Shown here in pieces: positions 4,686 through 32,884 of a DNA stretch of 64,000 bases (position 1 is its first letter; each line of letters opens with the position of its first letter). A program made the position numbers and the translations under genes. The notes under the pieces were generated by a model. That model searched no databases and was not told the DNA's origin. It saw only the letters and a list, made by a program, of their open reading frames with translations. The DNA is from Mesobacillus subterraneus (GTDB lineage: Bacteria > Bacillota > Bacilli > Bacillales > Cytobacillaceae): NCBI RefSeq assembly GCF_020524355.2, contig NZ_CP129019.1:4648001-4712000 (forward strand), written 5' to 3'.

Positions 4686-4988
4686 GTGAAGAAAATTGAT
4701 AAGTCAGTTGCTGACGCGTATTTCCGTGAAAGAACCCGTAACATGATCATTTATTTCATTATCTGGTTCCTCGTTTCGTTCGGAGTCGTAATGATTGCCG
4801 AGCCGCTAAGCGAACTTTCAATCGGCGGCTTCCCATTCCATTATTTCATGGGTGCGCAGGGAGCGATTGTCACGTTCATCATCCTGCTGTTTGTCAACGC
4901 CAAACTGAGTGATGGCATCGACAGGAAGTATGGGATTGATGAGGAGAAGAACGTGAAGCTGAGCGAAGGAAAGAGCCTGGATCACTAA
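4686..4988 (+). CDS. Sodium/substrate symporter small subunit (DUF4212)
   Basis: The 100-residue product has two membrane helices (about 20-40 and 55-75) and the family signature FPFHYFMGAQGAIVTFIILLF. Proteins of this type are encoded next to, and are thought to act with, a VC_2705-type sodium:solute symporter. Here the symporter begins 44 bp downstream. The GTG start at 4686 follows AAAGGGGTGTAAAT. The acidic/basic C-terminal tail is cytoplasmic by the positive-inside rule. The substrate is not known; related pairs are often annotated as acetate or organic-acid transporters. Confidence 0.88.
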   Translation: MKKIDKSVADAYFRERTRNMIIYFIIWFLVSFGVVMIAEPLSELSIGGFPFHYFMGAQGAIVTFIILLFVNAKLSDGIDRKYGIDEEKNVKLSEGKSLDH

Positions 4989-5032
4989 ATCACGGCGAAA
5001 GAAAAAAGAGCGTTTGAATAAGGGGGAGAACT

Positions 5033-6700
5033 TTGGATACACAATTCTTGGTCTCATTATCTATTATTTTAGCTACATTTGCTTTGTATATCGGAATTGC
5101 GGTTTACAATACAGCTAAGCAGACATCTGATTTCTATGTAGCCAGCCGCGGCGTACCGCCCGTTTTCAACGGGATGGCGATTGGCGCTGACTGGATGAGT
5201 GCCGCTTCCTTCATCGGACTCGCTGGGACGATTATGCTTCTCGGCTATGATGGCCTTGCTTATATCATGGGCTGGACGGGTGGCTATTTGCTGCTGACAT
5301 TCCTGCTTGCTCCACAGCTGCGAAAATACGGCCGATATACGGTTCCTGAATTTATCGGTGACCGATATAACAGCCACACTGCCCGCGTCATTGCGGCGAT
5401 ATCAACGATCATCATCAGCTTCACCTATTCGATCGGCCAGCTTTCCGGTTCCGGCGTGGTTATCGGGCGACTGTTCGAAATCGATGCAAAGCTTGGCACG
5501 ATGATTGGTGTGGTTTTGATCGCAACATATGCAGCGTTCGGCGGTATGAAGGGAATCACCTGGACACAGGTTGCCCAGTATATCATTTTGATCATTGCGT
5601 ATTTAATTCCGGTTATTTTCATGTCATTGCAGCTTACAAACAGTGCGCTTCCGTGGCTTTCTTATGGTGAGCTGGTCGGGAAAATGGGTGAACTTGACCG
5701 TGAACTAGGCATTTCAGAATACTTTGCGCCATTCACAAACGGCACAAAGTGGCAATTCCTTGCTCTGATGTTTACTTTGATGGCCGGTACGGCGGGACTT
5801 CCGCACGTAATCGTCCGCTTCTATACAGTTTCCACAATGAAGGCTGCTCGCTGGTCAGGCGCATGGGCACTTCTATTCATCGGCTTGCTTTATCTGTCTG
5901 CCCCTGCTTATGCAGCATTCTCGCGTTTTATCCTAATGACAAAGGTTGCCGGCAGCAAAATCAGCGAGCTTCCTGCATGGACGAAATCCTGGGTTGATAC
6001 TGGAAAACTTCAGGTTGCTGATGGAAATGGAGATGGCGTCCTTCAATGGAGCGAATTGATGATCTCCAATGATATCGTTGTTATGGCGACTCCAGAAATC
6101 GCAAACCTTGGAGTGTTCGTCATCGGTCTTGTAGCGGCAGGCGCTATGGCTGCTGCCCTTTCTACAGCCGGTGGCTTGATGATCGCGATTTCTTCCGCTT
6201 TTGCACATGACATCTACTATCGTGTCATGAAGCCAAATGCTACAGAGAAGACGCGCCTGAATGTAGCTCGTATTTCCATTGTTGTTGCCACAGTATTGGC
6301 CGGTCTTGTTGCCCTTGATCCTCCGGGTGCCATCACGCAAATCGTTGCCTGGGCCTTCGCGCTCGCGAGTGGAACATTCTTCCCGGCACTGATCCTTGGC
6401 GTATGGTGGAAGCGCTCAAATTCTCAAGGGGTTGTTGCAGGTATGCTTGTCGGTCTTGCCGTGACACTAGGATACATTTTCGCGGCAAAATACGGCGGTT
6501 TCACGATTCTTGGCATCATTGATACTGGTGCTGGAGTATTCGGTGCAACAGCAGCATTCCTTGCGAACTTCATTGTTTCACTTGCCACTCCGGCACCTTC
6601 GCAAAAAATTCAGGAGGAAGTACTCGACCTTCGCTATCCTGAACAGATGACCTATAAGAACGGCGAAGTTTGGATGAATGACGATGCAACAAAAGCTTAA
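5033..6700 (+). CDS. Sodium:solute symporter, VC_2705 subfamily (ActP-like)
   Basis: The 555-residue product is a member of the solute:sodium symporter family, with about 13 membrane helices. Family features include TSDFYVASRGVPPVFNGMA near the N-terminus, GADWMSAASFIGLAG, and TAGLPHVIVRFYT. A soluble loop between helices contains an intact EF-hand calcium-binding loop, DGNGDGVLQWSE (residues about 330-341), described under findings. The TTG start at 5033 is preceded by AAGGGGGAGAACT. The upstream partner is the DUF4212 subunit. The next gene overlaps its last 23 bases, so the three are almost certainly co-transcribed. It probably imports a small carboxylate with sodium, which is inferred from family only. 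Confidence 0.92.
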   Translation: MDTQFLVSLSIILATFALYIGIAVYNTAKQTSDFYVASRGVPPVFNGMAIGADWMSAASFIGLAGTIMLLGYDGLAYIMGWTGGYLLLTFLLAPQLRKYGRYTVPEFIGDRYNSHTARVIAAISTIIISFTYSIGQLSGSGVVIGRLFEIDAKLGTMIGVVLIATYAAFGGMKGITWTQVAQYIILIIAYLIPVIFMSLQLTNSALPWLSYGELVGKMGELDRELGISEYFAPFTNGTKWQFLALMFTLMAGTAGLPHVIVRFYTVSTMKAARWSGAWALLFIGLLYLSAPAYAAFSRFILMTKVAGSKISELPAWTKSWVDTGKLQVADGNGDGVLQWSELMISNDIVVMATPEIANLGVFVIGLVAAGAMAAALSTAGGLMIAISSAFAHDIYYRVMKPNATEKTRLNVARISIVVATVLAGLVALDPPGAITQIVAWAFALASGTFFPALILGVWWKRSNSQGVVAGMLVGLAVTLGYIFAAKYGGFTILGIIDTGAGVFGATAAFLANFIVSLATPAPSQKIQEEVLDLRYPEQMTYKNGEVWMNDDATKA

Positions 6701-9500: not shown

Positions 9501-10290
9501 TTATTGAATATTTATTAAGGCACCATTTTTATATCCAACGACAACTCGTCGCCCTGCGATTTCTTCAAACTCCCTCGCTGTTCCGTAAGAAACTTTTAAT
9601 GGGATGGCTTCTCCATCACTCTCAACCTCAATTGTAAAATTGTCAGCCGCCCCGATAATGGTTGCTTCCGCGAAGTCAATCTCGCCCGGTATGACGAGGT
9701 GCTGGCCGATCAGAACCATGTCCTGCTTCAAACCGTTAACTTGCTTTAATTCTTTCAAGCTGACACCGAACCGCTTGGAGATGTTGAACAATGTGTCTCC
9801 GGGGTTGACTATGTAGGTACCTTCATCCATTTGGAAGCCATGAACGGGGACCGATAGGACTTGTCCAATATAAATGGAGTCACTGACCAATTTATTTTCC
9901 TTTTTTAAATCTTTCACCGTTATACCGTATTTTTTTGCCAGGGAAAACAATGTGTCTCCTTTTTTTTACGAGATAGTTCCCTGCGTCAACCTCAACGGGT
10001 ACCTCGAGTGTCTGTCCCGCTTTAATGTTGTCCGAAGGCAGTGAGTTTACTTTTTTCAGCAATTCAATCGATGTATCATATTGCTTTGCCAGGCTGTATA
10101 ACGTATCTCCTTTTTTTACTGTATAAAATGAACCGATCGCTTCTGTTTTCTTTTGGCCGATGCCAAGCAGTAATCCTGCCGCTACCGATCCTGCTACTGC
10201 AGCGCCGATCAGTTTTCTGTTCCGTTTTAAGGTCACTTTGCGTTTTTGCTCTCTAATTCTCTGTTTTCTAGTTTGTCTGTAGGTAATCAA
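9501..10290 (-). CDS. Membrane-anchored protein with three LysM domains, frame-disrupted
   Basis: The repaired product is about 262 residues. The N-terminus is very basic, followed by one membrane helix (about 28-47), and then three LysM peptidoglycan-binding domains with motifs YTVKKGDTLYSLAKQY, YLVKKGDTLFSLAKKYG and YIVNPGDTLFNISKRFG. A C-terminal beta-rich domain of about 70 residues follows. There is no catalytic domain, so it is probably a wall-binding structural or anchoring protein. A T8 run at 9960-9967 (A8 on the coding strand) has one base too many and splits the second LysM domain. The TTG start at 10290 follows GGGGGAGAAG. It is divergent from spoIIID, so a sporulation role is possible but unproven. 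Confidence 0.82.
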
Positions 10291-11931: not shown

Positions 11932-14900
11932 TTGATTCTCACACTTTTTGACCGGAATCGGGTATTCGATCTCGTTTTGCCTGAACGAGTCACAGGTAGA
12001 TACATACTGAATACGGAAGATCAAGAAAACAACCCGGTCGATATGCTGGCTGTGGAAGCAGAAGAAGGCCAGTGGTATCTGAAATCCAATAAGCAGGCAT
12101 ACCTACAGGATAACGCCAACGAAATACAATCGAAGGTCCTCATTGAACCATTCAAAACATATAGTATTCACCGCAGCGACCATCAATCCGCTCTAGTCTA
12201 TGTTGAGCCGCAAACGGCAGACCGAAATGAATTCACTAAACATATTGCAACCACAAATTCCATTAAAATCGGGCGTTCGCAGGACAGTCAGATTTGTTTT
12301 TCGAACAAGCTAGTATCGAGTTCCCACTGCGTTATTGAATACAGCAGCAGTGGCAAGGCTGTCATCAAGGATTTCAACAGTTCCAACGGTACATATGTCA
12401 ATGGAGAAAGAATCAGGGAAAAGGAACTGGCTGTCGGTGATGTCATTTTCATCATAGGTCTCAAAATCATTTTCAACGGCCGTCTATTATCGTTGAACAA
12501 TCCGCATAAGTCGGTATTCCTCGACCGGAATGCATTCAATTCATTTATTGCAGAAAAACCTGTAGTCGAAAAAGAACTCAACCTCGATGAAATACATATT
12601 GAAGAAGAAAATAATCAACTCTTTTACCGTTCGCCGCGCTTCAAGCGTGATATTGAAGAAACAACCATTAAAATCGATCCGCCCCCCTCCACAGCCGAAT
12701 ATCGATGAGACGCCGCTGATGTTGTTGTTGGGACCGTCGATCACGATGGGGATGGCTTCACTTTTTACCGGTCTCCTTATGTTACAGAGTGTCATGAGCA
12801 GGGGCGGGGATATGATACAGGCGTTGCCAATGCTTGTTATGTCGTTCAGCATGATGATCGGTACGGTACTCTGGCCGATTTTAACCAAGAAATACGAAAA
12901 AAAAGCGCCGCATCAAGCTTGAGGGCATCCGCCAGGAAAAATATTCGAAATACTTGGCGGAAATGAAGCAAGTGATTGAGGAGGAGTGCAAGCACCAGAG
13001 CGAAATCCTGTTCGAAAATCACGTCACTCTTGAAAACTGCCTGACGAGAATCAAGCGTCGCCAGCGCAATCTTTGGGAGCGGGGAATCGGGCAGAATGAT
13101 TTCCTTAAAGTACGCCTGGGAATTGGAGACCTGCCACTGAACGCGGAAATCAAGTATCCTGAGAAACGCTTCATGCTTGAGGATGACAACCTTCAGGATG
13201 AGCTTTATCAAATCGTAGAGAAGCCTCAAATATTAAAGGATGTACCGGTCACTGTCGACTTGACGGAGGAGCGGATCAGCGGAATCATTGGCAGAAGGGA
13301 AGAAGTGAAGAGCTTTGTTCAGGGGCTGATTTTCCAGCTGACATCATTGCATAGCTATGACGAGTTAAAGCTAGTGTTCATATACGATGACCACGAACAT
13401 CATACATGGAATTTCGTGAAATGGCTTCCTCATGTTTGGGATGATGGCAAGACCATCCGCTTCGTCGCCACTGACGGTAATGAAATCAAAGAGCTTTCGG
13501 CTTATTTTGAAAAAGAAATCAGTGCGCGCCAGCAGCTTGCCGAGGAAGATCTTGCGGAAATTGATCAGCATTATATTGTTTTCTCGATGAACAAGAGCCT
13601 TGCATCGAAGGCAGAAATGATCAATCAAATAGTAAAAGAAAAGAAGAATATAAGATTCAGCCTGGTCACTCTCTATGACGAGCTGAAAAACCTGCCGAAG
13701 GAATGTACGAATGTCATCGAGCTGGACAAGAGTTTTTCCAAAATCTATGACAAAGACGATATTTCCGGGAAATATGTAGGTTTCAACGCTGATAGCTATC
13801 TAGAGGAAGATGCAGAAGAATTGGCTGTAAAATTGGCCAATATCCAGTTAAATACCTCACAAAAAGCATATACCCTGCCAGATATGCTGACATTCCTGGA
13901 AATGTTTGGCGTGGGTAAGATTGAACATCTCAATGCGCTGACGAAATGGAAGGAAAACAATCCCGTCCATACGATCCAGACGCAAATCGGTGTAGATACA
14001 CAGGGCGACCTGTTCATGATTGATCTGCATGAAAAATATCACGGTCCTCACGGCTTGATTGCTGGGATGACCGGGTCTGGTAAAAGTGAATTTATCATGA
14101 CATTCATTTTGTCGCTCGCGGTCAATTATCACCCGGACGAGATTGCGTTCATCTTGATTGATTACAAGGGTGGCGGCATGGCCAATGCGTTTGAGGATCT
14201 GCCGCACCTGGCTGGTACGATTACGAATCTCGATGGAGCAGCCGTCAACCGCTCGCTGATTTCAATCCAGAGTGAGCTGAAGCGCCGCCAGGCTATTTTC
14301 AGTGAAACGAGCCGCCTTGTTGATCAGAGTAACATCGATATCTATAAATATCAGAAACTATACCGTGAAGGCCTGGTAACAGAGCCGCTGCAGCATTTGT
14401 TCATCATTTCCGACGAGTTCGCCGAGCTGAAGGCGCAGCAGCCTGAGTTCATGGATCAGCTCGTCAGTGCCGCGCGTATCGGCCGAAGCCTTGGCGTCCA
14501 CCTGATTCTGGCGACGCAAAAGCCGTCTGGTGTCGTCGATGACCAGATCTGGAGCAACAGTAAATTTCGCATCAGTCTGAAGGTGCAGGAAAAAGCGGAC
14601 AGCATGGAGGTCATCAAGCGTCCAGACGCCGCGGAGCTGAAGCAGACCGGACGATTCTATCTCCAGGTTGGCTTCAACGAATTGTTCGAACTTGGGCAGT
14701 CTGCATGGGCTGGCGCGCCGTATTATCCGTCCGACAGAGTCGAAAAGTATAAGGATGACAGCGTCGTCGTCATAGATGACCTAGGCCGTGTCATTAAAAA
14801 TGCCCGTATTGATAAGCGCAAGTCCGCGATGAAAAATCCGCCGAAGCAAATTGATGAGATTACGGAATACCTGGCAAAAATGGCGAAGCAAGAGAACATC

Positions 14901-16560
14901 AAGGTCCGCCAGCTGTGGCTTGAACCGATTCCTGAGCTCATATACATCGATAAGTTGAAGAAAAAATATAGTATCCACCAGCAAGGTTTCCATTTGAACC
15001 CGATCATTGGCGAATATGATGACCCGGCCAACCAGCGGCAGATGGTCATGCGCATGCCGATCACGCAGGAAGGAAACGCGGTGATTTACGGTATTGCCGG
15101 AAGCGGTAAGACGACCTTCTTGACGACGATGCTTTATTCATTAATGGAAGAATATACGCCGAACGAAGTGAACTTTTACCTGCTTGACTTCGGTTCTGAG
15201 ACGCTTGTCTGGTTCAAGGAGGCACCGCATGTCGGCGATGTGATGCTGTCACATGAAAGCGAGAAGATCCACAACCTGTTCAAGATGCTTACAGGTGAGA
15301 TTGAACGGAGGAAGAAGCTGCTTTCAAATTACGGCGGAGATTTTATCACATACAACGAAATGTCGGGTGAGAGCCTGTCGTCGATTGTTGTGGCAATTCA
15401 CAATTATGCGGCGTTCTCCGAGATGTTCGAGGAGCTCGAGGAAGGTATATCATTCCTGACACGTGAGGGCCTGAAGTATGGCATTTACTTCATCGTCACC
15501 GCAATCAATACAGGGGCGATACGCTACAGGCTGCTCCAGAACTTTAAGCAGATGTATGTGCTCCAGCTGAATGACCAGAGTGAATACTCGGGCGTACTGG
15601 GCAATACAGAAGGAGTGTATCCATCCAAATCGAAGGGTCGCGGCATTTTCAAGAGTGATACAACATATGAATTCCAGACTGCCCATATCACAAGCGATAT
15701 AGACAATATGTACAGCTTCATCACCGATTATTGCAAAGGCCTGCGGGAATCATGGATGCAGCCAGCCGCAATGCGTGTTCCGATCCTTCCTGAGAAAGTC
15801 GATCTGGACTACCTGCGTGATGAAGCGAAAAATATGAACAGTAACAAAGTGCCAGTCGGCATTGAGAAAAACTCGCTGAAAACAGCTCATTTCGATTTCC
15901 TTGGCAACTATGTAAACGTGGTTACTGCGCTGCAAAATGATCAATGCTCAAGCTTCATGCAGGGCGTTTCTGAAATTTTCACCGCTTCAGAAGGCAGGGA
16001 ATTGATTGTCATCGACCCTAATGAGCACTTCGCGGCCGGCGGCCGGCCGCAAGCAGGATTATAAGTATTTTTGCGAGCAATCCGAACTCGAAGACACGAT
16101 CGTCTACCTGTTCAACACGCTCGTCCACCGGAACAATACGACGAAGGATGCAATTGAAGCAGGCGAGCAGCCGCCGGTATTCGGCAACATCACCTGTATC
16201 ATCGATTCCTTCACCGATTTAATGATGTATCTGTCACCGGACGGCCAGGATAAGCTCAAGGTCTTCCTTGAAAAAGGCAATGGCCTCAATGTGAACCTGA
16301 TCATCTCAGACAGCGCCGATAAGCTGAGCTCAATCTCATTCGAAGGCTGGTTCAAGCAGCATGTATCGCTTAGCGATTTCATATGGGCAGGCAACGGTAT
16401 CACTGATCAGTATGTGATGAAGCTCGGCAAGGTGACAAACGATATGTACCAGGAAATCCCGCCAGGCTTCGGCTATGTCGTGACAAAAGGAAAACCAACG
16501 CTCGTGAAGCTGTTATCCTCAGTACAAAGTAAGCAAGAGGAGGTAGCGTACCATGGATAA
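11932..16560 (+). CDS. essC: T7SS motor ATPase EssC/YukBA with FHA domain, frame-disrupted three times
   Basis: The repaired protein has about 1,541 residues and is the membrane-bound FtsK/SpoIIIE-type ATPase that drives type VII secretion. The N-terminus carries FHA modules; the second is canonical, with IKIGRSQDS, SSHCVIEY and NSSNGTYVNG (about 110-160). Two membrane helices follow (about 260-310), then ATPase domain 1 with GMTGSGKS (about 711) and LFIISDEFAE, domain 2 with GIAGSGKT (about 1052), and a degenerate third domain. The frame breaks are one extra C in C6 at 12682-12687, one extra A in A8 at 12897-12904, and one extra base in the GC-rich palindrome at 16030-16049. The TTG start at 11932 follows GGGGAGGAATTGAG. 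The stop overlaps yukD by eight bases. The linker after the FHA contains EETTIKI, a possible phosphothreonine site. Confidence 0.9.
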
Positions 16561-16804
16561 GGTGCTCGTAGAGGTCTTCATCCCCGCCTCTGAAAAATCA
16601 TACGACGTCTTCCTGCCGCAGGGAATCTTGCTGCACGAAGTCGTCCACCTGCTCGCCGGAACCATGACCGAACTATCACAAGGATACTTCTCGGCAACAC
16701 ACGACACCATCCTCTGTGACCGCAAAACAGGTACTATTTTAAACATCAACCAGACCGTTGAAGAAATCGGGTTGATGAACGGGGCTAAGTTGATGTTGAT
16801 TTAG
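16553..16804 (+). CDS. yukD: Ubiquitin-like T7SS accessory protein YukD/EsaB
   Basis: The 83-residue product has the YukD beta-grasp pattern, starting KVLVEVFIPASEKSYDVFLP and ending in the family-typical LMNGAKLMLI. YukD/EsaB is a small cytoplasmic regulator or component needed by T7SSb systems, and unlike ubiquitin it has no C-terminal glycine pair. The ATG at 16553 overlaps the essC stop and follows GAGGTAGCGTACC, so translation is coupled. The next gene, a lipoprotein, starts about 170 bp further on after a repeat-rich leader. Confidence 0.9.
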   Translation: MDKVLVEVFIPASEKSYDVFLPQGILLHEVVHLLAGTMTELSQGYFSATHDTILCDRKTGTILNINQTVEEIGLMNGAKLMLI

Positions 16805-19602: not shown

Positions 19603-21015
19603 ATGTCCTTGGATAAATTGACAGACGAAGAAAAAAGTATCCTTTTGCAGTTATCATATTTGGATTTGCCGCCTGAACTTACTGTTAGTGATAAATCCAC
19701 TCTTACAATTAATGCGGTGCTAATACAAATATCTGATAACAATATAGAAGTAGATTCGGATCGATTTAATAATATACAAAACTTCCTAAAAGATAATCCG
19801 AACACCAGCCTTAAAGATATCAAACTCACTGGCTACCAAAACCACAACCCGAATGAAGCTAATAATACAAATGGAGGATCTGAATCCGGTTTTGTTGGTT
19901 ACGCAATCAAGGATGGGGATGGCAATGGTGCAGTATTATTCCGAGGCAGTGAGAATCCTCTTAATTGGGGCAACCTTAAAACAGATTGGGGAGGAAATCT
20001 TGCCGCTGGTATTAGTATTGAAACCAAGCAGCATAACGAAGCGCTTGCTTTTTATGAAGCGAATATGAAGAACTTGGATGGAGACATCACGATTTATGGG
20101 CACTCTAAAGGCGGAAATCTTGGGTCCTGGGTTTTTGTTAATCATTCTCAAGATTCAAACGTCAACGCCTATATCTTAAATGGAGCTCCCCTTTGGTGGT
20201 TTGATTTGGATGACCGTCAGAAAGATGCGATGAAGAGTGAACGTTTTACATTTATTACTTTTAACGGAGATATCGTATCACATCTGGGATATGCCCCGTA
20301 TGTAGATAAGATTGTGTCGATCAATAAACAGCATGGAGATTATTGGGATCCGTTTTATCCGCATTATGAGACCAGCGGAGTATACAACAAGGATGGCAGT
20401 TTTGCATCAGCTCGAAGTGCGGGTACATGGGGAGTAGCCGATATGGCTTTGGATGTGTTCCATTCACTAGGCAGTATGCGGGATTACTTACCAAGGCAGA
20501 TTGCCAAGGCATGGATAGTAATCGGCGCAGCGACCTTGGACATTATTTATAACACCTGGCAGGGAATAGTCGCAAAGGCCAATTATGTAAAAGAGCAGGC
20601 ATTGATGTATATTTCCAAAGTACATCAAGCCGGACGGGAATTGATGAGCAAAGTTGAAAATTTATTCGATACTGTTGCCAAACATGCAAAAAGTTTTATA
20701 ACAAAAGCGATTGATTATGTTACTGGCAACAACTTCCCAATCGAACCTTATATAAAAGTTGACATCCCAAGGCTGTTCTATTACGCCAACCGGCTTCGCT
20801 CGGTACAGAGGCGTGTCGCTCAGCTTAACGAGATGATCGACGATTTGTACTGGGAAGCGGGTGTCATGGGACTGGATAATGTCCTCGCAGCGGATATCGC
20901 CTCATCCTTCGATATCCGGATTCCGGAAAGCATCAATTACCTGAACCGGACCGCGGAACTTTTACAGCAGAATGAAAGGTATCTCGCCGGAAAAGCCGGT
21001 TCAATCAGGGGGTAA
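19603..21015 (+). CDS. Candidate T7SS lipase toxin with C-terminal helical targeting domain (TslA-like layout)
   Basis: The 470-residue product starts with a lipase-like alpha/beta-hydrolase domain of the Mbeg1/DUF2974 type. The nucleophile motif GHSKGG is at about residue 166-171, with FRGSEN upstream in the oxyanion region and a candidate catalytic Asp and His further on. Residues about 385-470 form amphipathic helices (LRSVQRRVAQLNEMIDDLYW, and ESINYLNRTAELLQQNERYL) resembling a WXG/LXG hairpin at the C-terminus. This reversed order, enzyme first and targeting domain last, is known from the staphylococcal T7SS lipase toxin TslA. There is no signal peptide. The ATG at 19603 follows GGGGAGTGATTAG. 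Three lipoprotein genes precede it and a small helical protein gene follows. Confidence 0.75.
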   Translation: MSLDKLTDEEKSILLQLSYLDLPPELTVSDKSTLTINAVLIQISDNNIEVDSDRFNNIQNFLKDNPNTSLKDIKLTGYQNHNPNEANNTNGGSESGFVGYAIKDGDGNGAVLFRGSENPLNWGNLKTDWGGNLAAGISIETKQHNEALAFYEANMKNLDGDITIYGHSKGGNLGSWVFVNHSQDSNVNAYILNGAPLWWFDLDDRQKDAMKSERFTFITFNGDIVSHLGYAPYVDKIVSINKQHGDYWDPFYPHYETSGVYNKDGSFASARSAGTWGVADMALDVFHSLGSMRDYLPRQIAKAWIVIGAATLDIIYNTWQGIVAKANYVKEQALMYISKVHQAGRELMSKVENLFDTVAKHAKSFITKAIDYVTGNNFPIEPYIKVDIPRLFYYANRLRSVQRRVAQLNEMIDDLYWEAGVMGLDNVLAADIASSFDIRIPESINYLNRTAELLQQNERYLAGKAGSIRG

Positions 21016-21260: not shown

Positions 21261-21349
21261 GGTCAGACTGGGAACTTTATTCGGCCTCACGATGTTTGAA
21301 GATAGAAGAATATGATTCTATTAACTTCACTTGAAAGGAGGTGAAAAAG

Positions 21350-21652
21350 ATGGCAAGAGCAATCACTGTTGAACCAGCAAAACTTGAAACGACTGCTAAC
21401 AAGATTGACCAGCAGGCCGCTGATTACGAACGAAACTATAAAGCTCTTTTCAGTGAGGTTGAAGCGATGGCTGCTGCTTGGCAGGGTGCCGATAACCAGG
21501 CATATACTGCACAAATCAAGGGCTTCATGGACGACTTCAATAAAATGACTCAGTTGATGAGACAGTACTCTGAGTTCCTGAAAATGAGCGCGAAAACATA
21601 CCGCGACACTCAATCAGAGGTTATTAACCAGGCTAAGAGATTGAGCAACTAA
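21350..21652 (+). CDS. WXG100 family protein (EsxA/YukE-like)
   Basis: The 100-residue product is a helix-turn-helix hairpin with the WQG motif (about residue 46-48, AAAWQGADNQAY). WXG100 proteins are secreted as dimers by T7SS and are needed for secretion of other substrates. The typical length and the strong ribosome site AAAGGAGGTGAAAAAG before the ATG at 21350 support the call. No perfect YxxxD/E signal is visible at the C-terminus. Its partner is probably the second WXG100 protein 30 bp downstream. Confidence 0.93.
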   Translation: MARAITVEPAKLETTANKIDQQAADYERNYKALFSEVEAMAAAWQGADNQAYTAQIKGFMDDFNKMTQLMRQYSEFLKMSAKTYRDTQSEVINQAKRLSN

Positions 21653-21682: not shown

Positions 21683-21985
21683 TTGGCAGGAGATGGAATC
21701 AAAATCTCGCTTGGCGAGGTTAGCAAAACGGCGGGCCAAATCCGCAACCTTAACCAGCAACTATCCACTAGATTGGAAGAAATCAAGAAGGACATGAATG
21801 CACTATCGTCATCATGGAACTCTGATGCATCCAACACAATCCGCGGCAACTTCAACTCACTGGCACCACGATTTGAAGAATATCGCCAGGTCGTCGACAG
21901 TTACGCCAAATTCTTGGATAACACGGTCACTAACTACAACACTGCAGAAACAGCAATCAACAACAACGCCAGCTCTTTTAAATAA
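21683..21985 (+). CDS. Second WXG100 family protein
   Basis: The 100-residue product has the hairpin turn SSSWNSDASN (WNS in place of WXG, about residue 46-48) and the C-terminal YNTAE, which fits the YxxxD/E export signal. The TTG start at 21683 follows AGGAGGTGAAATACA. It is 30 bp after the first WXG100 gene, and the two may form a heterodimer carrying the signal on this subunit. Downstream lies a 430-bp gap with repeat arrays. Confidence 0.92.
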   Translation: MAGDGIKISLGEVSKTAGQIRNLNQQLSTRLEEIKKDMNALSSSWNSDASNTIRGNFNSLAPRFEEYRQVVDSYAKFLDNTVTNYNTAETAINNNASSFK

Positions 21986-22469: not shown

Positions 22470-23784
22470 ATGATCAAACATGCGGAATTTAAACTGGAAA
22501 GCTACGGAATTTCGAAATTCCTTTATTATCATGCGAACAGCAAGGCGGATATCGATGGCGGCCAGGTGGAGCTGCTGAGAGCGAGCCGGGTTCCGGGAAT
22601 CCTGCCGTGCCATGCGATTTTAGAGGGAGATAACTGCTTTCTTCGCTATGACATGCTTTCCGATAACACGCTTGAAATGCTGAATTCTACGCCGGCGACG
22701 AAGGAGCGTCTGTACAACAGCTTCCTCAACATTGCCGAAACATTGGTGGATGCTCAAGCAAGCGGTCTGGATATCGCAAATTTCGTGTTCAGCCAGCGTG
22801 ACATCTTTATTGATAATTTTTCAAACAGATTAGTTTTTATCTACCTTCCTGTAAAAAATAATATTTTTGAAAAGGTATCACTTAAAGAGTTCCTGCAGGA
22901 CATGCTGCTGTCGGCTCCTTACGACGAAAAGGATGATGCCGCATTTTTTATCAAACTCCATAACTATCTGGTCGAGACAAAGAAAATCAAGCCTGAAGAG
23001 CTGCTGGAAAAAGTGAATGAGCTCGGCGGGGATGAAACACTCGTCCGCCAGCCTTACAAGATGCCGGATAAACCGAAGCAGGAAGCGACCCTACAAACAG
23101 TAACAGACCAAGAACCAATACTTGAACCCTCAGAGCTTGGGATACCGTCCATCAACCCGAATTTCTACAGTCCTGGCAGTGAAGTCCATACCATGAAAAC
23201 GAGCGTTGACAATGGCGTGCTGACTTCTGAGTACACAAGCCAGAAGAAGGATGTAAAAACAGGCCGCAAGCTTGAAATTGAGGAAGAAGTCAACTACAAG
23301 CGGATCACGAGGGCGGAGCTTGGTGAAAACAATGCCTTGTTAAAAGAAGCTTCGGCACTCGGTGGCGGAACATCAATCAACATCCAGCCTGGCCATTGCC
23401 AGCAGCAGTGAATCGGAGGACGGAGGCACGACAGTACTTGGCGTCACGGCAGATGAGGATGAGGGAACGACAACCCTTGGACATTCAACCCGCAGGCCAT
23501 TTTTACTGGCAGTCTCAAAGAATGAAAAAATCACGATTGCCAAGGACTTTTTCAAAATTGGCCGCGATCCGATGAGGGCGGACTTTGCCACTGAAAACAA
23601 AGTAATCGGCCGGGTGCATGCCCATGTGATCGTAACGAACGGCGAATACTTCCTGGAAGACAATCACTCGACCAACGGTAGTTTCGTGAATGGTGTGAAG
23701 GTCTCGCCAAAGGAAAAAGTCAAAATCAAGCACGAAGATAAAATCAAGCTCGCGAACGAGGAATTCATCTTCAAGGTTTATTGA
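22470..23784 (+). CDS. DUF6382-FHA domain protein of the T7SS locus, frame-disrupted
   Basis: The repaired product is about 437 residues. The first 190 or so match the DUF6382 type (FLYYHANSKADIDGGQVELL, and FSQRDIFIDNFSNRLVFIYL), which recalls the cytoplasmic pseudokinase part of EssB/YukC. A Glu/Pro-rich linker follows, then GTTVLG and GTTTLG. The C-terminal FHA domain (about 350-437) has FKIGRDP, GRVHAHVI and NHSTNGSFVNG. The TTxLG motifs just before an FHA domain recall the phosphorylated ETTS segment of mycobacterial GarA. One extra G at 23391-23392 breaks the frame; without it the reading is INIQPAIASSSESEDGG. The next gene is a PP2C phosphatase. A soluble adaptor role is inferred. Confidence 0.8.
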
Positions 23785-23802: not shown

Positions 23803-24594
23803 ATGGCATTTCAAGTGGCCTATCATACCGACATAGGAATCAAGAAGAAAACGAACCAGGATGGGCTGTTGCTGAAAACGGCGAAGACACCTGATGGGGA
23901 AATCGGTCTATTCATCATCTGCGACGGAATGGGCGGGCTTTCACATGGTGAACTGGCAAGCGCTACGGTGATCAGAGGAATGTCCGAGTGGTTTGACAAT
24001 GATCTGCCGGAGCTTCTGGGTTCCGGCATCGCGGAAGACGATTTTCCCGGCAAGCTTGAGGAGCGTGTCCGCGAGCTGAACACAAAAATCCTTGAATATG
24101 GCGAGGCAGCAAACATCAAGCTTGGAACGACAATCACAGCTTTGCTTCTCCTCCATAAGCAATATTATATTTTGCAGATTGGGGACAGCAGGGCTTACAG
24201 CATAAACAATCATCTGATAAAACTGACCGAAGACCAGACACTCGTCGAACGCGAGTTGCAGCGCGGCAATATTACCGCCGAACAGGCGAGAATCGACCCG
24301 CGCCGGAATGTGTTGCTCCAGTGCGTTGGCGCAACAAAGGACATCAACGTCGTCATCACTTCAGGCGAAGTCGACAGCGAAAACATGTTTATGCTCTGCA
24401 CGGACGGATTTTACCATGAAATCACTGATGAAGAAATGGTCACAAACCTGAACCCGCAACATTTTACCGATGAAAAACAGATGAAAGAAACGCTCGTACA
24501 ACTCGTCGAGCTCGCAAAAGAACGCCAAGAAACAGACAATATCTCGATTCTGCTGGCAAAACGGGACATGGGGAAAGTTCTTGCGTTCCGATAA
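23803..24594 (+). CDS. PP2C-family Ser/Thr protein phosphatase
   Basis: The 263-residue cytoplasmic enzyme should remove phosphate from serine and threonine. PP2C metal-binding motifs are visible: TNQDGLLL, CDGMGGLSHGE, GTTITALLL, QIGDSRAYS, CTDGFYHE and TDNISILLAK. Length fits a minimal PP2C (PrpC/Stp-like). The ATG at 23803 follows AGGAGGAACCAAA. It lies between the FHA protein and the kinase, so these are its likely partners. Confidence 0.93.
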   Translation: MAFQVAYHTDIGIKKKTNQDGLLLKTAKTPDGEIGLFIICDGMGGLSHGELASATVIRGMSEWFDNDLPELLGSGIAEDDFPGKLEERVRELNTKILEYGEAANIKLGTTITALLLLHKQYYILQIGDSRAYSINNHLIKLTEDQTLVERELQRGNITAEQARIDPRRNVLLQCVGATKDINVVITSGEVDSENMFMLCTDGFYHEITDEEMVTNLNPQHFTDEKQMKETLVQLVELAKERQETDNISILLAKRDMGKVLAFR

Positions 24595-24639: not shown

Positions 24640-26583
24640 TTGATACAAATTGGCACGATCATTGATGACAGATATGAAATATTGAAGGAAATCGGGCGTG
24701 GCGGCATGAGTGTCGTCTACCTGGCGATGGACAACCGGCTGAATAAATCGCTTGTCGTCAAGGATATCCGCAAGCGCAGCAACAGCAACAACGAGCTCTT
24801 GATCAACAGTCTGGTCGTTGAGGCGAACATGCTGAAAAAACTCGACCATGGCTCTTTGCCAAAAATATACGACATCATCGAGTCCGAAGGTGACATCTAT
24901 GTGGTGATGGACTATATCGAAGGCGAGTCACTGAAGGAAAGGCTCAAGCGCGATGGAAAAATCCCGGCGAAAGAGGTCATTGAGTGGGCAAAGCAGCTGA
25001 GCGGTGTACTTGGCTATCTTCACACGCGCAAGCCATACCCGATTATCTACCGCGACATGAAGCCGGACAATGTCATGCTCACGCCAGAGGGTAAAATCAA
25101 GCTGATCGACTTCGGGATCGCGCGTGAATTCAAAACTGAGAATCTATCGGATACGACAAACCTTGGTACAAAAGGGTATGCGGCACCCGAACAAATTTCC
25201 GGCAGACAGACAGACGCGAAAACGGATATTTATAGTCTGGGAATCACACTCTACCACCTTGTCACCGGGAAAAATCTCAGCGAACCGCCGTTCGAGATAA
25301 GGCCAATCCGCGAGTGGGACCCGTCGCTGCCGGAGGGCCTCGAACATATCATCAAAAAATGCACCCAGGCCGAGCCGGCGAACCGTTACCAGAACTGTGA
25401 GGAGCTGAGCTATGACCTCGAGCACATCAACAGGCTGACAAAAGGCTACAAGAACATGCTCATTAAGAAGCTGGCTATGTTCGTCGTTCCAGCCGTACTG
25501 TTCCTGGCGTTCTCAACAACCTCGGCCCTCGGCTATAAAGGGATGAAGAATGAGCAATTCCAGGATTATATGAATCTTGTAAATCAGGCGAGCATTGCCT
25601 TGATGGACGGTGAACAGACCGAAGCGATCAAGCTTCTCGAGAGTGCGACCCGCGTAGATAAAGAACGACCGGAGGCCTACATCAATCTGCTTGATTTATA
25701 TATTAATAGAAACCAGACAGACGAAGGACTCGCCAAGATGGAATCATACATACAGGATAAATACGGGGGAGTCCACGAGAATAATGAAGTTCTTTTCAAG
25801 GTGGGGATGACCTATTTTGATGTGAAAAGGGACTATAACAACGCGCTGAAATACTTCCAGCAGATCGATGAAAAAGAACTGCCGGATGCGAAATATTACA
25901 AGTCGCTGGCAACGACAATGAGCAGCCTGAACGTCGATTATACGAAATTCGCCGGCGATCTCCAGGAATTCCACCAGTATAATGACGGACTGGCGAATGA
26001 CAGCAAGAAAATCGATAACTATAACTCTCTTGCAAATATCTATATTTCATATAAGAGCCAGATTCCTGAATCAAACACACAGGCAATCGAGATTGTCCAG
26101 AAGGCGAAGGAAGTACTGGCAAAGCTTGAGAACGAACAGCTCCAGTTCAAATACGAAATGGAATTCGAACAGAAGCTGGACCAGGCATACTACAGCCGCG
26201 GCGTGAATTCCGAGGACAAAGCGAGTGCCCGCGACGATTACGAACAGGCAATCGAGCATTACAACAACCTGCTTGACTTGAATGTTGCAGATCAGGAAGA
26301 TGTCTACATCAAAATTGGTGTCATCTATCAGGAAATGGGCGAATTTGCTCGCGCAGTTGAGTACTTCCAGAACACGACGCTGAAAAAGTTTCCTGACAGC
26401 ATCAATGCCAATGTGAAGCTAGGTAATCTCCTCCTGGACATTGAACAAAACAAAGAAGAAGGCAAACGGAATTACGCCGAAGCAAAAAAAGTCTTTGAAA
26501 AAGCAAGCACCCTCCCTGGTGCCAAAGACGACGAAGGATACAAAAAACTCAGCAGACGCATGGAAAATTTGAATATTCTCTAG
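24640..26583 (+). CDS. Membrane Ser/Thr protein kinase with extracytoplasmic TPR-like repeats
   Basis: The 647-residue product has an N-terminal Hanks-type kinase domain (about 10-275) with GRGGMSVVY, catalytic YRDMKPDN, DFG (LIDFGIARE) and GTKGYAAPE. The activation loop is rich in threonine (DTTNLGTKG). One membrane helix follows (about 288-308), and then about 330 residues of TPR-like helical repeats outside the membrane. The TTG start at 24640 follows CTAGGAGGAATTACC, while the frame itself is open from 24595. PASTA domains, typical of PrkC, are absent. It would phosphorylate locus proteins carrying TTxL motifs. That target set is inferred. Confidence 0.92.
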   Translation: MIQIGTIIDDRYEILKEIGRGGMSVVYLAMDNRLNKSLVVKDIRKRSNSNNELLINSLVVEANMLKKLDHGSLPKIYDIIESEGDIYVVMDYIEGESLKERLKRDGKIPAKEVIEWAKQLSGVLGYLHTRKPYPIIYRDMKPDNVMLTPEGKIKLIDFGIAREFKTENLSDTTNLGTKGYAAPEQISGRQTDAKTDIYSLGITLYHLVTGKNLSEPPFEIRPIREWDPSLPEGLEHIIKKCTQAEPANRYQNCEELSYDLEHINRLTKGYKNMLIKKLAMFVVPAVLFLAFSTTSALGYKGMKNEQFQDYMNLVNQASIALMDGEQTEAIKLLESATRVDKERPEAYINLLDLYINRNQTDEGLAKMESYIQDKYGGVHENNEVLFKVGMTYFDVKRDYNNALKYFQQIDEKELPDAKYYKSLATTMSSLNVDYTKFAGDLQEFHQYNDGLANDSKKIDNYNSLANIYISYKSQIPESNTQAIEIVQKAKEVLAKLENEQLQFKYEMEFEQKLDQAYYSRGVNSEDKASARDDYEQAIEHYNNLLDLNVADQEDVYIKIGVIYQEMGEFARAVEYFQNTTLKKFPDSINANVKLGNLLLDIEQNKEEGKRNYAEAKKVFEKASTLPGAKDDEGYKKLSRRMENLNIL

Positions 26584-26676: not shown

Positions 26677-27327
26677 ATGGCATACCAGATCATGTTCTAC
26701 GGCGGTTTGGCAGGTGCGATAATCGCGCTGGTGATTGCGGTTCTGACCTACGTGAAACTCAATATTGCCCAGGTCATTACGGATCTGACAGGCTGGAATT
26801 TTCCAGGCGCGGGGAGAAAAGCCCGGAAGACCACAGTCAGCCGCAAGACCAACACCAGCACAAAGCCGACAACAAAGGAAATTCATGTCCGCAAGAATGT
26901 CGAGAAGGAAGTGGCGGCTGGTGAGTATGTGGAGCCGACAGAAAAGATGGCAAGCGGGCAGATGGAGCCGACAGCACTTTTGAGGAATGAGAGCTTCAAA
27001 CAGACAGCTTTGCTTAAACAGGATAACCTAGATCCAACAGCGCTGTTCGCGCCTGATGGGCACGAGCCAACAGCTTTATTGGCTGAAACTCCTGTGCGCG
27101 AACCAGTGGCAGCAGCAGTCTCATCCAACAGGAGCGTTTTCCATGAGTCACCAGCCGAGACGACCATCCTGTCTGATTGGAATGAAACGACTGTACTGAC
27201 CTCAGACCATGACGAAACGACTTTACTTGGTGAAACAACCTTATTGGATAATCTCGGTAAAAGAGAAGAACCAAGCTTTAAAAAGCAGGTTGATATTATC
27301 GTGGTTCATTCAGAAACAATTATTTAA
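26677..27327 (+). CDS. Membrane protein with repeated TALL/ETTxL motifs, candidate phosphothreonine scaffold
   Basis: The 216-residue product has one N-terminal membrane helix (about 8-28), a basic stretch, and then a disordered acidic tail. The tail repeats a short threonine motif at least eight times: EPTALL, QTALL, DPTALF, EPTALL, ETTILSD, ETTVLTSD, ETTLL and ETTLL. FHA domains bind phosphothreonine and read the residue three positions later, and ETT motifs are known kinase targets in GarA. A kinase gene ends just upstream and FHA proteins are encoded in the same operon. I infer a membrane platform that recruits FHA proteins once phosphorylated. No known family was recognised. The ATG at 26677 follows AAGGAAGGCAGTTGAAGAAAA. 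Confidence 0.75.
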   Translation: MAYQIMFYGGLAGAIIALVIAVLTYVKLNIAQVITDLTGWNFPGAGRKARKTTVSRKTNTSTKPTTKEIHVRKNVEKEVAAGEYVEPTEKMASGQMEPTALLRNESFKQTALLKQDNLDPTALFAPDGHEPTALLAETPVREPVAAAVSSNRSVFHESPAETTILSDWNETTVLTSDHDETTLLGETTLLDNLGKREEPSFKKQVDIIVVHSETII

Positions 27328-27495: not shown

Positions 27496-30400
27496 ATGCT
27501 CGAACCGAGGAAAAAGAAGAAGCACCCAAGCAATAAATGGGCTGCTATCATCCCGATTTTGTTAGTCCTGATTGTGTCTGTGGTGCTTTTTAATGGCAAG
27601 GCGCTTTCTACATTAACGAATGTTGACAAAAAAATTGGATTCGAGAGCCAGGAATGGAATATGGCTGAATCGTTTAACAAGGATTGGCAAACCAACCACA
27701 ATCCTGTTACATTCACTGTTGATTTGCGGAATGATTTCAGTAAAGCGAATCTTCAGGGACAAAATGTTCAGGCACCGTTTAATATCACGGCTGATCAAAA
27801 CGGGAACCCAATTTTAGTTACAGACATCTCCCCTGTAGGCGGTGCGGAATTCGCGGGGATATACAGGGTGAATATTCCATCTGCAAATGATGGGAAAATT
27901 AATATCGACGTAAATTTTTTAAATGATGAAATATGGAGCCTTGAGGCTGAAACTAAAACATTCAGCATCACACGTGACACAACTGCCCCTACTGTAAAAT
28001 TATCAGGTGCTGAGAATGATATTCTTACAAACCAAGATGTCAAAATCAATGTTGAAGTGATAGAGGAACATTTTGTTGCCGAAAACGTAGATGTTACTGT
28101 TTCGAAAAACGGGAACCCATACAATGTGGGTGACTGGGGATCGGCAAAGAGCAAATCTTATTCTTTCAGTGAAGAAGGCGAATATATCTTCACAGTAAAA
28201 GCAACAGATAAGGTCGGAAACGAGAGCAGCCAGGAACAGTTGAATTTTGCGATCCGAAAAAAGGCTCCTGAGTTGACTGTTTACGCAGGCGAGAAGCCGC
28301 TGTCTAAAGGAGAAGTTTCAAAAACGGACAGTGTAAACCTTAAGATTTCTAGCAAAATCAAGATTGATACCGCGACGGTAACAGTACTGAAAGATGGAGA
28401 GCAAATAGAGACAAAGACATTCCCCGCAGGAGATTGGGAAACCATCCTCAACTATCCAACACCTGGTGAAGGAGAATATGAATTCCAGGTGAAGGTTAGC
28501 GAAAAGCATGCAAGGGGCGAGGAACATTCATTGCCATCATTCGCTTTCACTGCCGACAAAACGGCACCAAAGCTTGCAATCCTGGATGTGGAAAATGGCG
28601 GATTATATGAAACTGATAAGAATGTAAAGGTGACAGTAGATGAAGTCCATATGGGCAATGCTCACTTTGAAATCAAGAAAAAAGACATCAATGGTGAGGA
28701 AACATCAAAAAGTGTTGATGTGAAAGACGGTAAAGCCAGCTATACTTCCAACGGTGAGGGTGAATATACCGTCACATTGAAGGCAACGGATGCCGCTGGC
28801 AATCAAGCTGCAGAAGAAAGCGTTACGTTCAAAGTCGACAAAGATGGACCAATCCTCTCCATCTCAGAAGATGTAGACGGAAAGTATTTTAAGATAGACA
28901 AGGAGCTGACATTCTCGGTAAAGGATATCAGTCTAGTAAAAGCAAACCTGAATGTGAAGAAGGATGGCGATCCATATACCATCGGCAACTTCATCGAAAA
29001 ATTGTTCACATCCTCGGTTACGCACAATTTTACGGAGGAAGGAACTTATGAAGTTGACTTAAACTCAAAAGATGGCAAAGAGCGAGAGAAATCGCATCCT
29101 CCGGTGACATTCTCAATTGATAAGAATGATCCAGTCATCACAGCATCAGCTGTTGAAAAAGTAAAAGACGAAAAGAAATACTATGAAGTGACTGTTGATG
29201 TAACAGATAAGTATATCGAGTGGGAAAATACGAGTATAAAAGTTTATAGGAATGGCGAATTGCTTTCCGAAATCAAAGAAAAAGAAGTGGCTAAAACGCA
29301 TTTAGTTGAAGAAGATGGCGAGTATGCTTTCGAAATCACAGCGACAGACAAAGCGGGCCGCGTCACGTCCAAAAATGATGTGACATTCACAATTGACAAT
29401 ACGGATCCACAACTGTCCATCAATGGAGTAGAGCATGGAGGGTATTACCAAAAACTTGAGAATCTCGAACTGGCGATTGAGGACTTAACTTTCGTACTTG
29501 GAGAAACGAAGCTTGAAGTACTGAAGGATGGGGAATCATACGATTTCGGAAAAGGGGATTGGGACATCCTTACTAAAGGCGGTCTCAAAAGAGCAGTCAA
29601 GAAGCTGAGCTTCGATAAGGATGGCGATTACGAAATTAAGCTCACAACAAAGGACTTTTTTGGAAACGAAAATACTCTCGAACCAATCAAGTTCACCATC
29701 GACACAATCCCACCGGATTTAAAAATTGAAAATGTCTCAGAGGGGGATGAATTAGGAAAGGACCTTAATGTAAAGGTATCTGTTACTGATAAAAATATGG
29801 ATCTGGATAAAACATTTCTAAATGTTACAAGGAATGGCGAGGAGTATCTGGCCGAAAAAGGACAGAAGGTTTCTGGCGTTCATCCATTCACAGAAGATGG
29901 GATTTATGTCATCAATCTCGAATCAACAGATAAAGCAGGGAACAAAAACAGCCAACAACAACTGACATTCACTGTCGACAAGTCGAAGCCAACACTTGAT
30001 ATTACAGGCTTTGAAGCCGGCGAGCATTATCAAAAGCTTGAAGGTGTCGAATTATCAGTAGAAGATTTAACTATCGATTTAAAAGCAACGAAAATCGAGG
30101 TATTAAGAGACGGTAAACCGTACGAAATAGAGAATGGTGAGTGGAATGATGCTTCAAAAGGCGTTCTCAAAAGAGCCTCCCGCAAGCTTAACTTTGAAGA
30201 AGATGGGGATTATGAAATCAAATTGACCTCAATGGACAGGGTTAAACACCAACATTCGTTCGGTCCTGTCAAATTCACAATTGACCATACCAATCCGGTC
30301 ATCGAGCTAAGTGGAATTGATGAGGGAGATTTCGTACAGAAGGGCAAGTCGGTCAAGGTGAAAGTGACTGAACACAACTTTAACGATAACAAAGTGACCA

Positions 30401-32884
30401 TTGAAGCAACAAAGAACGGCATGCCATATGATTTAAGCCAATGGGAAAACAGCGGCGAAGTCTCTGAATTGAGCCACACTTTTAACGAAGACGGCGACTA
30501 TGAAATCACGGTAAATGCAACAGACCGAGCGAAAAATAAAGCGGAAATAAAAACGCTGTCCTTCACCGTCGATAATATCAAGCCGAAAATTAGTATTACA
30601 GGCGCAAAGAATAACGCTTATTACAATAGTGACCAAGAGATCAAAATAGCGGTAGATGAGCATAACTTCGCAAATAATAAAGTGAATCTCAAGGTTACCA
30701 GGAAAATAGAGGTCGATGGCAAGTCTGTTGACTTCCCAATCGGCGAATGGAAAAACGTAAAGCAGCTTTCTGACTTAAGCTACAAGTTCGACCGCGATGG
30801 CGAGTATCAAATGACTGTCGAAGCGAAGGATGCGGCCGGGAATGCTGCTGATACGCAAACGCTCGTTTTCACCCTTGATTACATCGATCCGGAACTGAGC
30901 ATTACAGGCGTTAGTGATGAGGAACATTACCGTACAGATAAACCAGTCAGCATGAAGATATCAGACCGCAACATCGACCTGTCGCAGACGAACCTAAAAG
31001 TCGTGCGCAATGGCCAGCCCTTCAAGATTGGCAATCCGGATCTGAAAGGAAAAACGGCTGCTGAGAAGAATTTCAATTTTTCGCAGGAAGGCAGCTATGT
31101 GATCGACCTGAATACAACCGACAAAGCTGGCAACAGCAAGAAACATGACCGGGTTACTTTCATCATCGACAAAACCAACCCGGGCGTGAAAATCGATGGA
31201 GTAGAGAACAACTCATTTAATCCAGAAAACAAAAACGTGACCATCTCAATCGATGAATTAAACTATGAAACGAACGATGTAAGCATCTCCGCAACAAAAG
31301 ATGGAGCTGCCTTCCCAATCGGCAGCTGGAAGAATACAAGCAAGCTGTCGAAGTTAGGATACAATTTTAACAGGGATGGTCTTTACACGATCCAGGCCAC
31401 GGCAGAGGACAAAGCCGGTAACGGACCAATCTATGAAAAAAAAGACCTTTACGATCGATAAAACCAAGCCTGAAATCGAAATCACTGGTGTCGAAAATAA
31501 TGCCTATTACAATGTTGATAAACCAGTTAGCACGACAATCAAGGACGTTAACCTGGACATCAATAAAATCACGGTCACCAGGAACGGTGCACGATATAAT
31601 GCTGGCGGCTTCGCAGTGAACGGAAATCTCGCTTCTTTCCGCCACAACTTCAGCGGTGAAGGTGAATACAGCATCCTGGTTCAAGCAACCGACAAAGCGG
31701 GCAACAGCTTCAGTCAGATGATGAAGTTCACGATCGACAAGACGAAGCCAGTCATCACGCCGAAATTCAAAGGCCAGAACCGCGTCATTAAAGACGGAGA
31801 GTATATCAATGAAGTATTCACTCCGGAATTTGCCCTGGATGAAGGGGAGGATATGATCGTTTCCGCTACGCTCAATAATGGTGCAAACCTTGGTAAAAAC
31901 AGTCCAGTTGCAGCAAGGGAAATGAAATACATTTACAAAGTTCTCGCACGCGACAAAGCAGGCAATGAATCAACACTGGAAATCAGCTTTACGCTTGATA
32001 CTACAAAGCCGATGCTGAATATTTCCGGCGTACTGGATGGCTTTTTCAATAAAGACATCACACCGAAAGTGACGTATTCAGATATTCATTTGGACGGGAA
32101 CAAGACATCCGTAACCTTGAACGGCAAGCCATTCGAAAATGGCACAAAGCTTGAATACGAACAGGATTATATTTTAAAAGCGGTTGTAACCGACCTGGCG
32201 AAAAACGTTTCATCACGGACAATTGTCTTCACAATCGATAAAACAAAGCCGGTCATCAAGTTCAAAGAGCCAATTTCCAATAAGTATTTCAACACCGATC
32301 TGCTGCCACAGCTGCTGATTGATGACATGAGTTCATATGACATCATTGCGATGATGCTTGATGGAAAACCATATGAAGCCGGCGATCCAATCAAAGAAGA
32401 AGGAAAGCACGTCATGTTCTTTGAAGTCAAGGATAAGGCAGGCAACATCCAGCAGTTGAGCGTCGAGTTCATCATCGACAAAACGGCACCAAAGGTCGTG
32501 TATGAAGGTGTGAAAAATAAGGAGAAGTACTACGATCCAGTTGACATCTCCATCCGCCTGGATAACCCGAATGACAAAATAAAATCAGTCATGATCAACG
32601 GGGAATTGTTCGATGGCGACGTAGTCGAAGAAAGCGGCTACCAAGTAATCAAAACGAAGCTGGCTGAAATCAAGCCATACGAAATCAAAGTAACTGCATT
32701 TGATGAAGCAGGTAACGAAAAAACAACCATCATTTCATTTGAAATCGTTGAAAAAGGAGCTTTAGTGAAGTTTTATGAAAATAAACCAATGCTCGGCGGA
32801 ACGATTGCTGGTTTAGTAGGACTGCTTGGAGCAGCCGCTACGGTGCTGATTCGCAGGCGCAAGGTGAAGGTGGAAGAAGAATAA
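27496..32884 (+). CDS. Giant Ig-like repeat protein anchored by membrane helices at both ends, frame-disrupted
   Basis: The repaired product is about 1,795 residues. A basic N-terminus and helix (about 13-34) precede roughly 17 repeats of about 90-110 residues. Each begins near F(T/I)ID(K/T)TxP and contains a YxxG(x)W turn, HxFxEDGxYxI, and ATDKAGN. These are bacterial Ig-like beta-sandwich domains. The C-terminus has a helix (GTIAGLVGLLGAAATVLI) followed by RRRKVKVEEE, with no LPXTG. By the positive-inside rule both ends are cytoplasmic, leaving one extracellular loop of about 1,720 residues. An A8 run at 31436-31443 has one base too many. The ATG at 27496 follows AAAAGGAGAATAAGAG. It is a candidate wall-spanning part of the secretion machine or an adhesin. 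Confidence 0.82.

Follow-up and report, generated by a model that had tools for sequence, protein, structure and literature searches.

The open reading frame at positions 26677..27327 (forward strand) of the Mesobacillus subterraneus window encodes a TseK-like protein that is best read as a membrane-anchored, multivalent ligand on which FHA domains dock through phosphothreonine, a reading to which we give a probability of roughly two in three. The window is the whole stretch of DNA that was analysed, 64,000 nucleotides of contig NZ_CP129019.1. The reading builds on observations of the TseK family, the conservation of its motifs, its synteny, the residues of the FHA sites encoded in the locus, and co-occurrence. 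It makes TseK a candidate substrate with mapped sites, and supplies a candidate reader (the FHA domain of EssC) and a testable pT-x-x-L code.

A single-helix protein with an array of threonine motifs

The gene starts with ATG, is intact, codes for 216 amino acids and occurs as a single copy in the M. subterraneus genome. AlphaFold2 places an N-terminal membrane helix at residues 3-27, followed by a short helix at residues 30-38; nothing is modelled confidently beyond about residue 45, and from residue 51 the tail is a low-confidence coil (block pLDDT 46-57), predicted to be disordered. A basic juxtamembrane stretch, read from the sequence, follows the membrane helix and suggests that the tail is cytoplasmic, on the same side as the kinase domain. 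Conserved across the family are the YGG helix, a DLTG juxtamembrane element, a T-x-E-I element (T66 here), the motif array and a C-terminal peptide, F..E.DI..VH[ST]..I, which in the window protein ends in VVHSETII. Over residues 200-216 this peptide is kept family-wide as F..[EQ].DI..VH[ST]..I, with H211 invariant in the alignments.

The array covers residues 99-190 and consists of eight T-x-[LIV]-[LF] motifs in two groups, both of which were compared in 14 orthologues. The first group (26968..27081, forward strand) has Thr 99 (EPTALL), 110 (QTALL), 121 (DPTALF) and 132 (EPTALL), and the second (27157..27246, forward strand) has Thr 162 (ETTIL), 171 (ETTVL), 181 (ETTLL) and 187 (ETTLL). The original prediction, of one membrane helix and a tail of eight TALL/ETTxL-type motifs, is borne out by the intact frame, by the mapping of the motifs and by their frequency far above that in shuffled sequences: seven strict T-x-[LIVMA]-L motifs occur in the window tail, whereas 1000 shuffled tails contain 0.54 on average and never more than 5. 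When the 104 ORFs of the window with at least 100 aa are used as a motif-density control, the TseK-like ORF has eight T-x-[VILA]-[LF] matches and the runners-up have three. The 76 homologous tails from the loci described below contain 510 T-x-[LIVMA]-L motifs (39.7 expected from shuffles) and 579 T-to-L pairs at +3 (128 expected), with a smaller excess of pairs at +2 (306, 129 expected), T-x-L-L being common among the motifs. The slot preceding x-[VIL]-L is occupied by T 501 times and by S 10 times, in tails that total 1482 T and 1005 S. Chance repetition of the motifs is rejected by the shuffle, slot and window-ORF counts.

Codons were compared between the window sequence and each of 14 distinct Mesobacillus-type orthologues. 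Purifying selection on the motif Thr is strong (of 96 comparisons, 1 shows a nonsynonymous change and 38 a synonymous one), whereas the spacer changes freely (373 nonsynonymous and 255 synonymous in 996). Within the genus, 7 of 96 comparisons are nonsynonymous at +1 and 4 of 97 at +2. The +3 codons are less clean than the motif Thr, with 19 of 100 comparisons nonsynonymous and four of the eight sites varying, and part of this signal is due to the window's own F and to a local alignment gap. Aligned homologues hardly vary at the first Thr of the ETT motifs (T162, T171, T181) or at the Leu at +3 (L165, L174, L184), and E180/T181 are invariant in 35 sequences; the second Thr is variable, unlike the first, and is less likely to be the site. 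FHA domains take their selectivity from the residue at pT+3 (PMC5549992; this and the other papers cited are represented here by excerpts), and the TseK-like motifs combine, as such ligands do, a conserved Thr with a conserved residue at +3.

The size of the array is a feature of lineages. Eight motifs are present in the window protein, as predicted, and the more general expectation of "eight or more" does not extend to the family, in which the copy number of T-x-[LIVMA]-[LF] ranges from 0 to 18 with a median of 6 across the 76 loci (3-18 in 52 loci of the window's family, 0-9 in 24 loci of f87, a distant family of the same phylum) and tracks tail length (Spearman 0.86). Part of the second family has only 0-3 copies, and a large array is therefore not essential.

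Distribution of the TseK family

Sequence searching returned 88 proteins, including the query's own, and profile searching returned 148 among the 7,999 scored candidates that shared most words with it. The nearest named homologue, from Mesobacillus jeotgali, is 83% identical; the named homologues belong to Bacillaceae genera, and the distant ones may be clostridial, as judged by their look. No model of Pfam (E up to 0.01) or NCBIfam (E up to 0.1) matches the protein. In whole-genome searches the TseK profile finds a match in 63 of the 193 genomes from the window's family, in 27 of 120 from f87, and in 6 of 398 sampled across the phylum, four of the six being strong.

Around the matches 80 stretches were fetched (51 from the window's family and 29 from f87), and the 76 loci counted throughout are those, among the fetched stretches and the window, whose TseK profile score is at least 35. 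Fourteen genomes of the genus have a TseK match, of which only the window's, G003 and G012 are among the 76. Five matches scoring below 35 (L157-L161) fall outside the count: L158, L160 and L161 have kinases, the kinase of L157 is divergent, and L159 has no kinase match. Also outside it are two weak matches from the phylum-wide search, L164 (genome G312), which has an internal stop, no kinase in the stretch and no motif pair, and L165 (genome G348), a short divergent TseK-like ORF at 4833-5141 that carries three T-x-[LIV]-L motifs and adjoins a kinase. Homologues that keep the motifs outside kinase/FHA loci, which the original prediction had named as evidence against itself, were not clearly found; the nearest case is the divergent, low-scoring L165, which has its kinase and in whose genome no DUF6382 was found by genome search.

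Conservation of the locus

The neighbouring genes from the kinase to the WXG100 pair, in the order given here, lie on the forward strand. Immediately upstream of TseK is a TseD/TsjD-like Ser/Thr kinase (24640..26583; identified by Pfam, PDB sequence search and motif patterns), with a PknB/StkP-like domain that has YRD and DFG, then a hydrophobic stretch, and then TPRs. It is preceded by a TseF-like PP2C/PPM phosphatase (23803..24594, Pfam) and a TseJ-like DUF6382-FHA protein (22470..23784, Pfam), whose gene is split by a frameshift into 22470-23411 and 23362-23784. Downstream of TseK is a giant TseI-like envelope protein with Ig-like repeats (27496..32884; NCBIfam, first ORF), in two ORFs (27496-31461 and 31376-32884). 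The secretion genes are an EssC/TsxC ATPase with an N-terminal FHA domain, broken over several ORFs (11932..16560, Pfam), a YukD/TsxB-like protein (16553..16804; Pfam 25.4 bits at a cut-off of 27, and our own profile), and two WXG100 proteins (21341-21652, by Pfam and our own profile, and 21683-21985, by our own profile). Like EssC, TseJ and TseI, a penicillin-binding protein (19-2020) and a LysM protein (9501-10290), both identified by eye, are each encoded in pieces, on ORFs that overlap or adjoin. A sister genome (L134) has EssC and TseJ each in one uninterrupted ORF, so that errors in the assembly of the window genome are a likely cause. Just upstream of the WXG100 genes is a lipase-like ORF (19603-21015, by eye) that resembles the "reverse" lipase substrates of the Neobacillus T7SSe in PMC11217815.

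The association with the kinase and the phosphatase is nearly constant. All 76 loci have a kinase gene upstream of TseK and in the same orientation, within 20 bp in 59 of them and at most 917 bp away, and 75/76 have a PP2C gene. Of 81 loci inspected for kinase motifs, 76 match every pattern; among the remainder, DFG can be recognised by eye in two, the glycine-loop pattern is missing from one, and L157 and L159 are the divergent and absent cases given above. An FHA protein is encoded within the fetched stretch in 59/76 loci, and each of the other 17 loci has a DUF6382 match in its genome (17/17). EssC falls within the stretch in 38/76 (37/52 in the window's family and 1/24 in f87). A downstream same-strand ORF of at least 400 aa starts within 1.5 kb of TseK in 70/76 loci and reaches at least 800 aa in 65; it was identified as Ig-like in the window and in L108. 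In L146 and L163 the downstream ORF starts more than 1.3 kb away and looks unrelated, and of the six loci without a large downstream ORF, L120, L125 and L154 are at sequence ends.

Candidate FHA readers

The FHA domain of EssC keeps the residues of the phosphothreonine site: of 34 EssC ORFs with 1300 aa or more, 33 have GR, SxxH and NG (31 by pattern and two by eye), the remaining one being N-terminally truncated and the NG match of L133 possibly misplaced. In the window's split EssC the corresponding stretches, read by eye, are IGR, VSSSH and SSNGT, and the best PDB sequence match of this domain is the FHA domain of Rv1747 (6cah). The EssC of T7SSb, as described in PMC11217815 and PMC4925161, is without the phosphothreonine site.

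The FHA site of TseJ was read by eye in 46 of 62 ORFs, those outside the regular expression. In the window's clade it has GR, GRxH replacing SRxH, and the Asn kept, and in a second clade GK, SRxH and NK. With Gly for the Ser of S-x-x-H, the TseJ domain is degenerate in the window lineage, which weakens the DUF6382-FHA protein as main reader in this genome. The proposal that the FHA proteins of the locus read the tail is supported by the site residues of EssC and by the presence of the motif in TseJ; in this genome the DUF6382-FHA protein is the weaker candidate reader.

The TseJ linker carries GTTVLG and GTTTLG in the window, has pLDDT below 50, and has T319, L322, T332 and L335 invariant in 72 homologues. 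Of 56 TseJ ORFs in the loci, 52 have the motif N-terminal to the FHA domain; one of the misses is the split ORF of the window. Eighteen DUF6382 loci served for comparison only (L166-L183, from 17 genomes without a TseK match plus a second locus of G162), and the linker motif occurs in 7 of these 17 genomes, so that its presence does not depend on TseK and is also consistent with self-binding. The fold matches of the TseJ model are to FHA domains, nearly all over residues 334-436. Top matches are CEP170, DgcB with its own phosphopeptide, MEK1 and EmbR with Foldseek, and EmbR, DgcB and GarA with VIA-align; a PDB title names the pThr22 form of GarA. Structural neighbours include phosphopeptide complexes of DgcB and EmbR, a likeness of fold that does not equal likeness of function.

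Genomes without type VII secretion

The original prediction described the protein as a hub for type VII secretion. In 38 genomes the fetched stretch contains no EssC. The window's EssC finds a match outside the stretch in 21 of them (E up to 1e-30), although some of these matches, at 32-38% identity, perhaps belong to another T7SS type. In the other 17, the window's EssC as query gave no match at E 1e-30, and WXG100 was found in 0/17, the positive control matching in B. subtilis and T. maritima; these absences depend on the assemblies, of which 15 of 17 reach a completeness of 90% or more with contamination of no more than 5%. With 17/76 loci in genomes lacking both matches, a role for TseK in type VII secretion only is rejected, and the hub description is not supported. 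In these 17 genomes TseK has 1-9 motifs (median 4), with at least two in 16. FtsK-domain matches in the 17 are mostly in frames of FtsK/SpoIIIE length or shorter; G596 has a weak match in a 1185-aa frame, and one in G577 (C2:703956-704426) falls, unexplained, in an open frame of 1782 aa.

The cassette of G514 continues directly into a Tad cluster with ParA-like, T2SSE (CpaF), two T2SSF, TadE and prepilin peptidase genes, together with a DUF6382-FHA gene and a second PP2C gene (all by Pfam), and the gene order in G577 is the same. In two pairs of stretches, L108 with L184 and L109 with L185, a phosphatase-kinase-TseK-giant protein cassette is contiguous with a Tad cluster, in genomes where neither EssC nor WXG100 is matched. 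In 6/38 genomes (G514, G577, G595, G596 and G660, all among the 17, plus G675) TseK has a CpaF homologue on its own strand at a distance of up to about 16 kb, and in G242, G589 and G686 one about 28-31 kb away; 34/38 genomes have a CpaF match somewhere, and some of this linkage may be due to chance. The DUF6382-FHA proteins of G514, G577, G515 and G525, which are without T7SS, have GR, SRTH and NG, and T-x-[LIV]-L in the linker; in G515 and G525 they are encoded, with the Tad genes, on a contig other than that of TseK.

A proposed docking platform and its alternatives

The phosphothreonine platform first proposed for this protein has gained support at the level of sequence, from the conserved Thr, the Leu at +3 and the near-absence of Ser, and by synteny, from the kinase and the phosphatase. 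We infer that the tail is phosphorylated, bound by FHA domains and clustered, with an effect on secretion. On the disordered cytoplasmic tail, the kinase would phosphorylate each T-x-[LIV]-L motif at its first Thr, and the phosphatase would reverse this. FHA domains, here most likely that of EssC, would bind the resulting pThr-x-x-Leu sites, and the DUF6382-FHA protein, with a motif in its own linker, might be a competitor, an adaptor or a switch that binds itself, like GarA and DgcB. With so many sites held at the membrane, the ATPase of the machine could then be gathered or clustered for as long as the kinase is active.

Were the tail mainly a regulator or buffer of the kinase, that is, a multi-site pseudo-substrate setting kinase output with FHA binding secondary, it would be natural for the kinase to adjoin TseK in 76/76 loci (59 within 20 bp) and for an FHA protein to be found in the stretch in only 59/76. 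Bacterial Ser/Thr kinases generally accept Ser too, and despite this the motif slot has T 501 times and S 10 times; the selective +3 residue is what FHA domains read (PMC5549992), and the identical motif occurs in the FHA protein TseJ. We therefore consider such a buffer rather unlikely. A linear motif that docks a partner, such as EssC or the cytoplasmic end of the giant envelope protein, independently of phosphate would agree with the conservation of +1 and +2 within the genus (7/96 and 4/97 nonsynonymous) and with the second conserved peptide at the C-terminus, but a motif that almost never admits Ser in place of Thr is difficult to account for unless something reads phosphothreonine, and the near-constant company of kinase and phosphatase also speaks against it, making it a quite improbable account. 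The variable copy number (0-18), tracking length as it does, is what a neutral expansion of a low-complexity tail would produce, in which case only the helix and the C-terminal peptide would matter; given purifying selection at the motif Thr as against free change in the spacer, and motifs far above chance in most of the 76 tails, we regard this as highly implausible.

Returning to the multivalent FHA ligand, its working unit would be a small gene set of phosphatase, kinase, TseK and giant envelope protein, which sits in a type VII locus here and beside a Tad pilus cluster in some relatives without T7SS. The occurrence of TseK in genomes without T7SS suggests one signalling module common to unrelated surface machines. 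As a speculative extension, which we put forward only tentatively, the PP2C, the membrane kinase, the multi-phosphothreonine TseK and the giant envelope protein might form a portable, surface-sensing cassette that switches or clusters any envelope machine whose FHA domain matches, be it type VII secretion or, in other lineages, the Tad pilus; the number of motif copies would set the response.

Comparison with known systems

The protein had been thought to belong to no described family. Its position, topology and gene company, compared by description, instead appear to fit TseK/TsjK, components of T7SSe/T7SSj (Garrett, Higginson and Palmer 2024, PMC11217815) that have one TM and a short unstructured cytoplasmic stretch and are encoded with TseJ (DUF6382-FHA), TseF (PPM), TseD (kinase) and TseI (Ig-like). 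That paper notes that TseC and TsjC have conserved phosphothreonine sites and brings up control by phosphorylation; it records kinases, phosphatases and FHA proteins among T7SS variants, and its excerpted text names no substrate. The same text differs from our results in giving TseK no motif, array or phosphothreonine role and in not describing TseK in genomes without T7SS. T7SSe and T7SSj are told apart there by TseH, by clustering of EssC with TseC and by a kinase C-terminus unlike the TPR domain of TsjD; the TPRs of the window kinase are a T7SSj trait, and the paper names a Neobacillus T7SSe. No paper on TseK motifs was found in searches of the openly licensed literature, in which PMC11217815 was the only relevant one, by title, among the matches listed, and the only one joining Tad, FHA, type VII, kinase and Ig-like. 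In the window, the AlphaFold2 model has the single TM helix and the unstructured stretch, and the company of TsxA, B, C, D, F, I and J is present.

GarA is an FHA protein with its own phosphopeptide, its Thr motif lying N-terminal to the FHA domain, and its ETTS motif, a substrate of Ser/Thr kinases in mycobacteria, can be compared with the ETT motifs of TseK. DgcB (PMC6733907) likewise has a Thr motif N-terminal to its FHA domain, as in TseJ. The output of these two is metabolic or through cyclic-di-GMP, and they are relevant to TseJ, not to TseK itself.

The PpkA-PppA-Fha system shares with the proposed one a membrane kinase, a phosphatase, an FHA reader and the activation of a secretion machine through a phosphothreonine that a membrane protein carries: in Agrobacterium type VI secretion p-TssL is bound by Fha (PMC3953482), and in Acidovorax PpkA condensates are described (PMC12607579). 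The machine and the proteins are unrelated, and the site there is one Thr on a core component, in contrast to a dedicated multi-site ligand. Rv1747 of Mycobacterium tuberculosis (PMC10906006) also brings together a membrane protein, a phosphorylated disordered region, FHA, a kinase and a phosphatase, with the difference that FHA and disordered region are joined in one transporter, whereas the TseK array is a separate protein.
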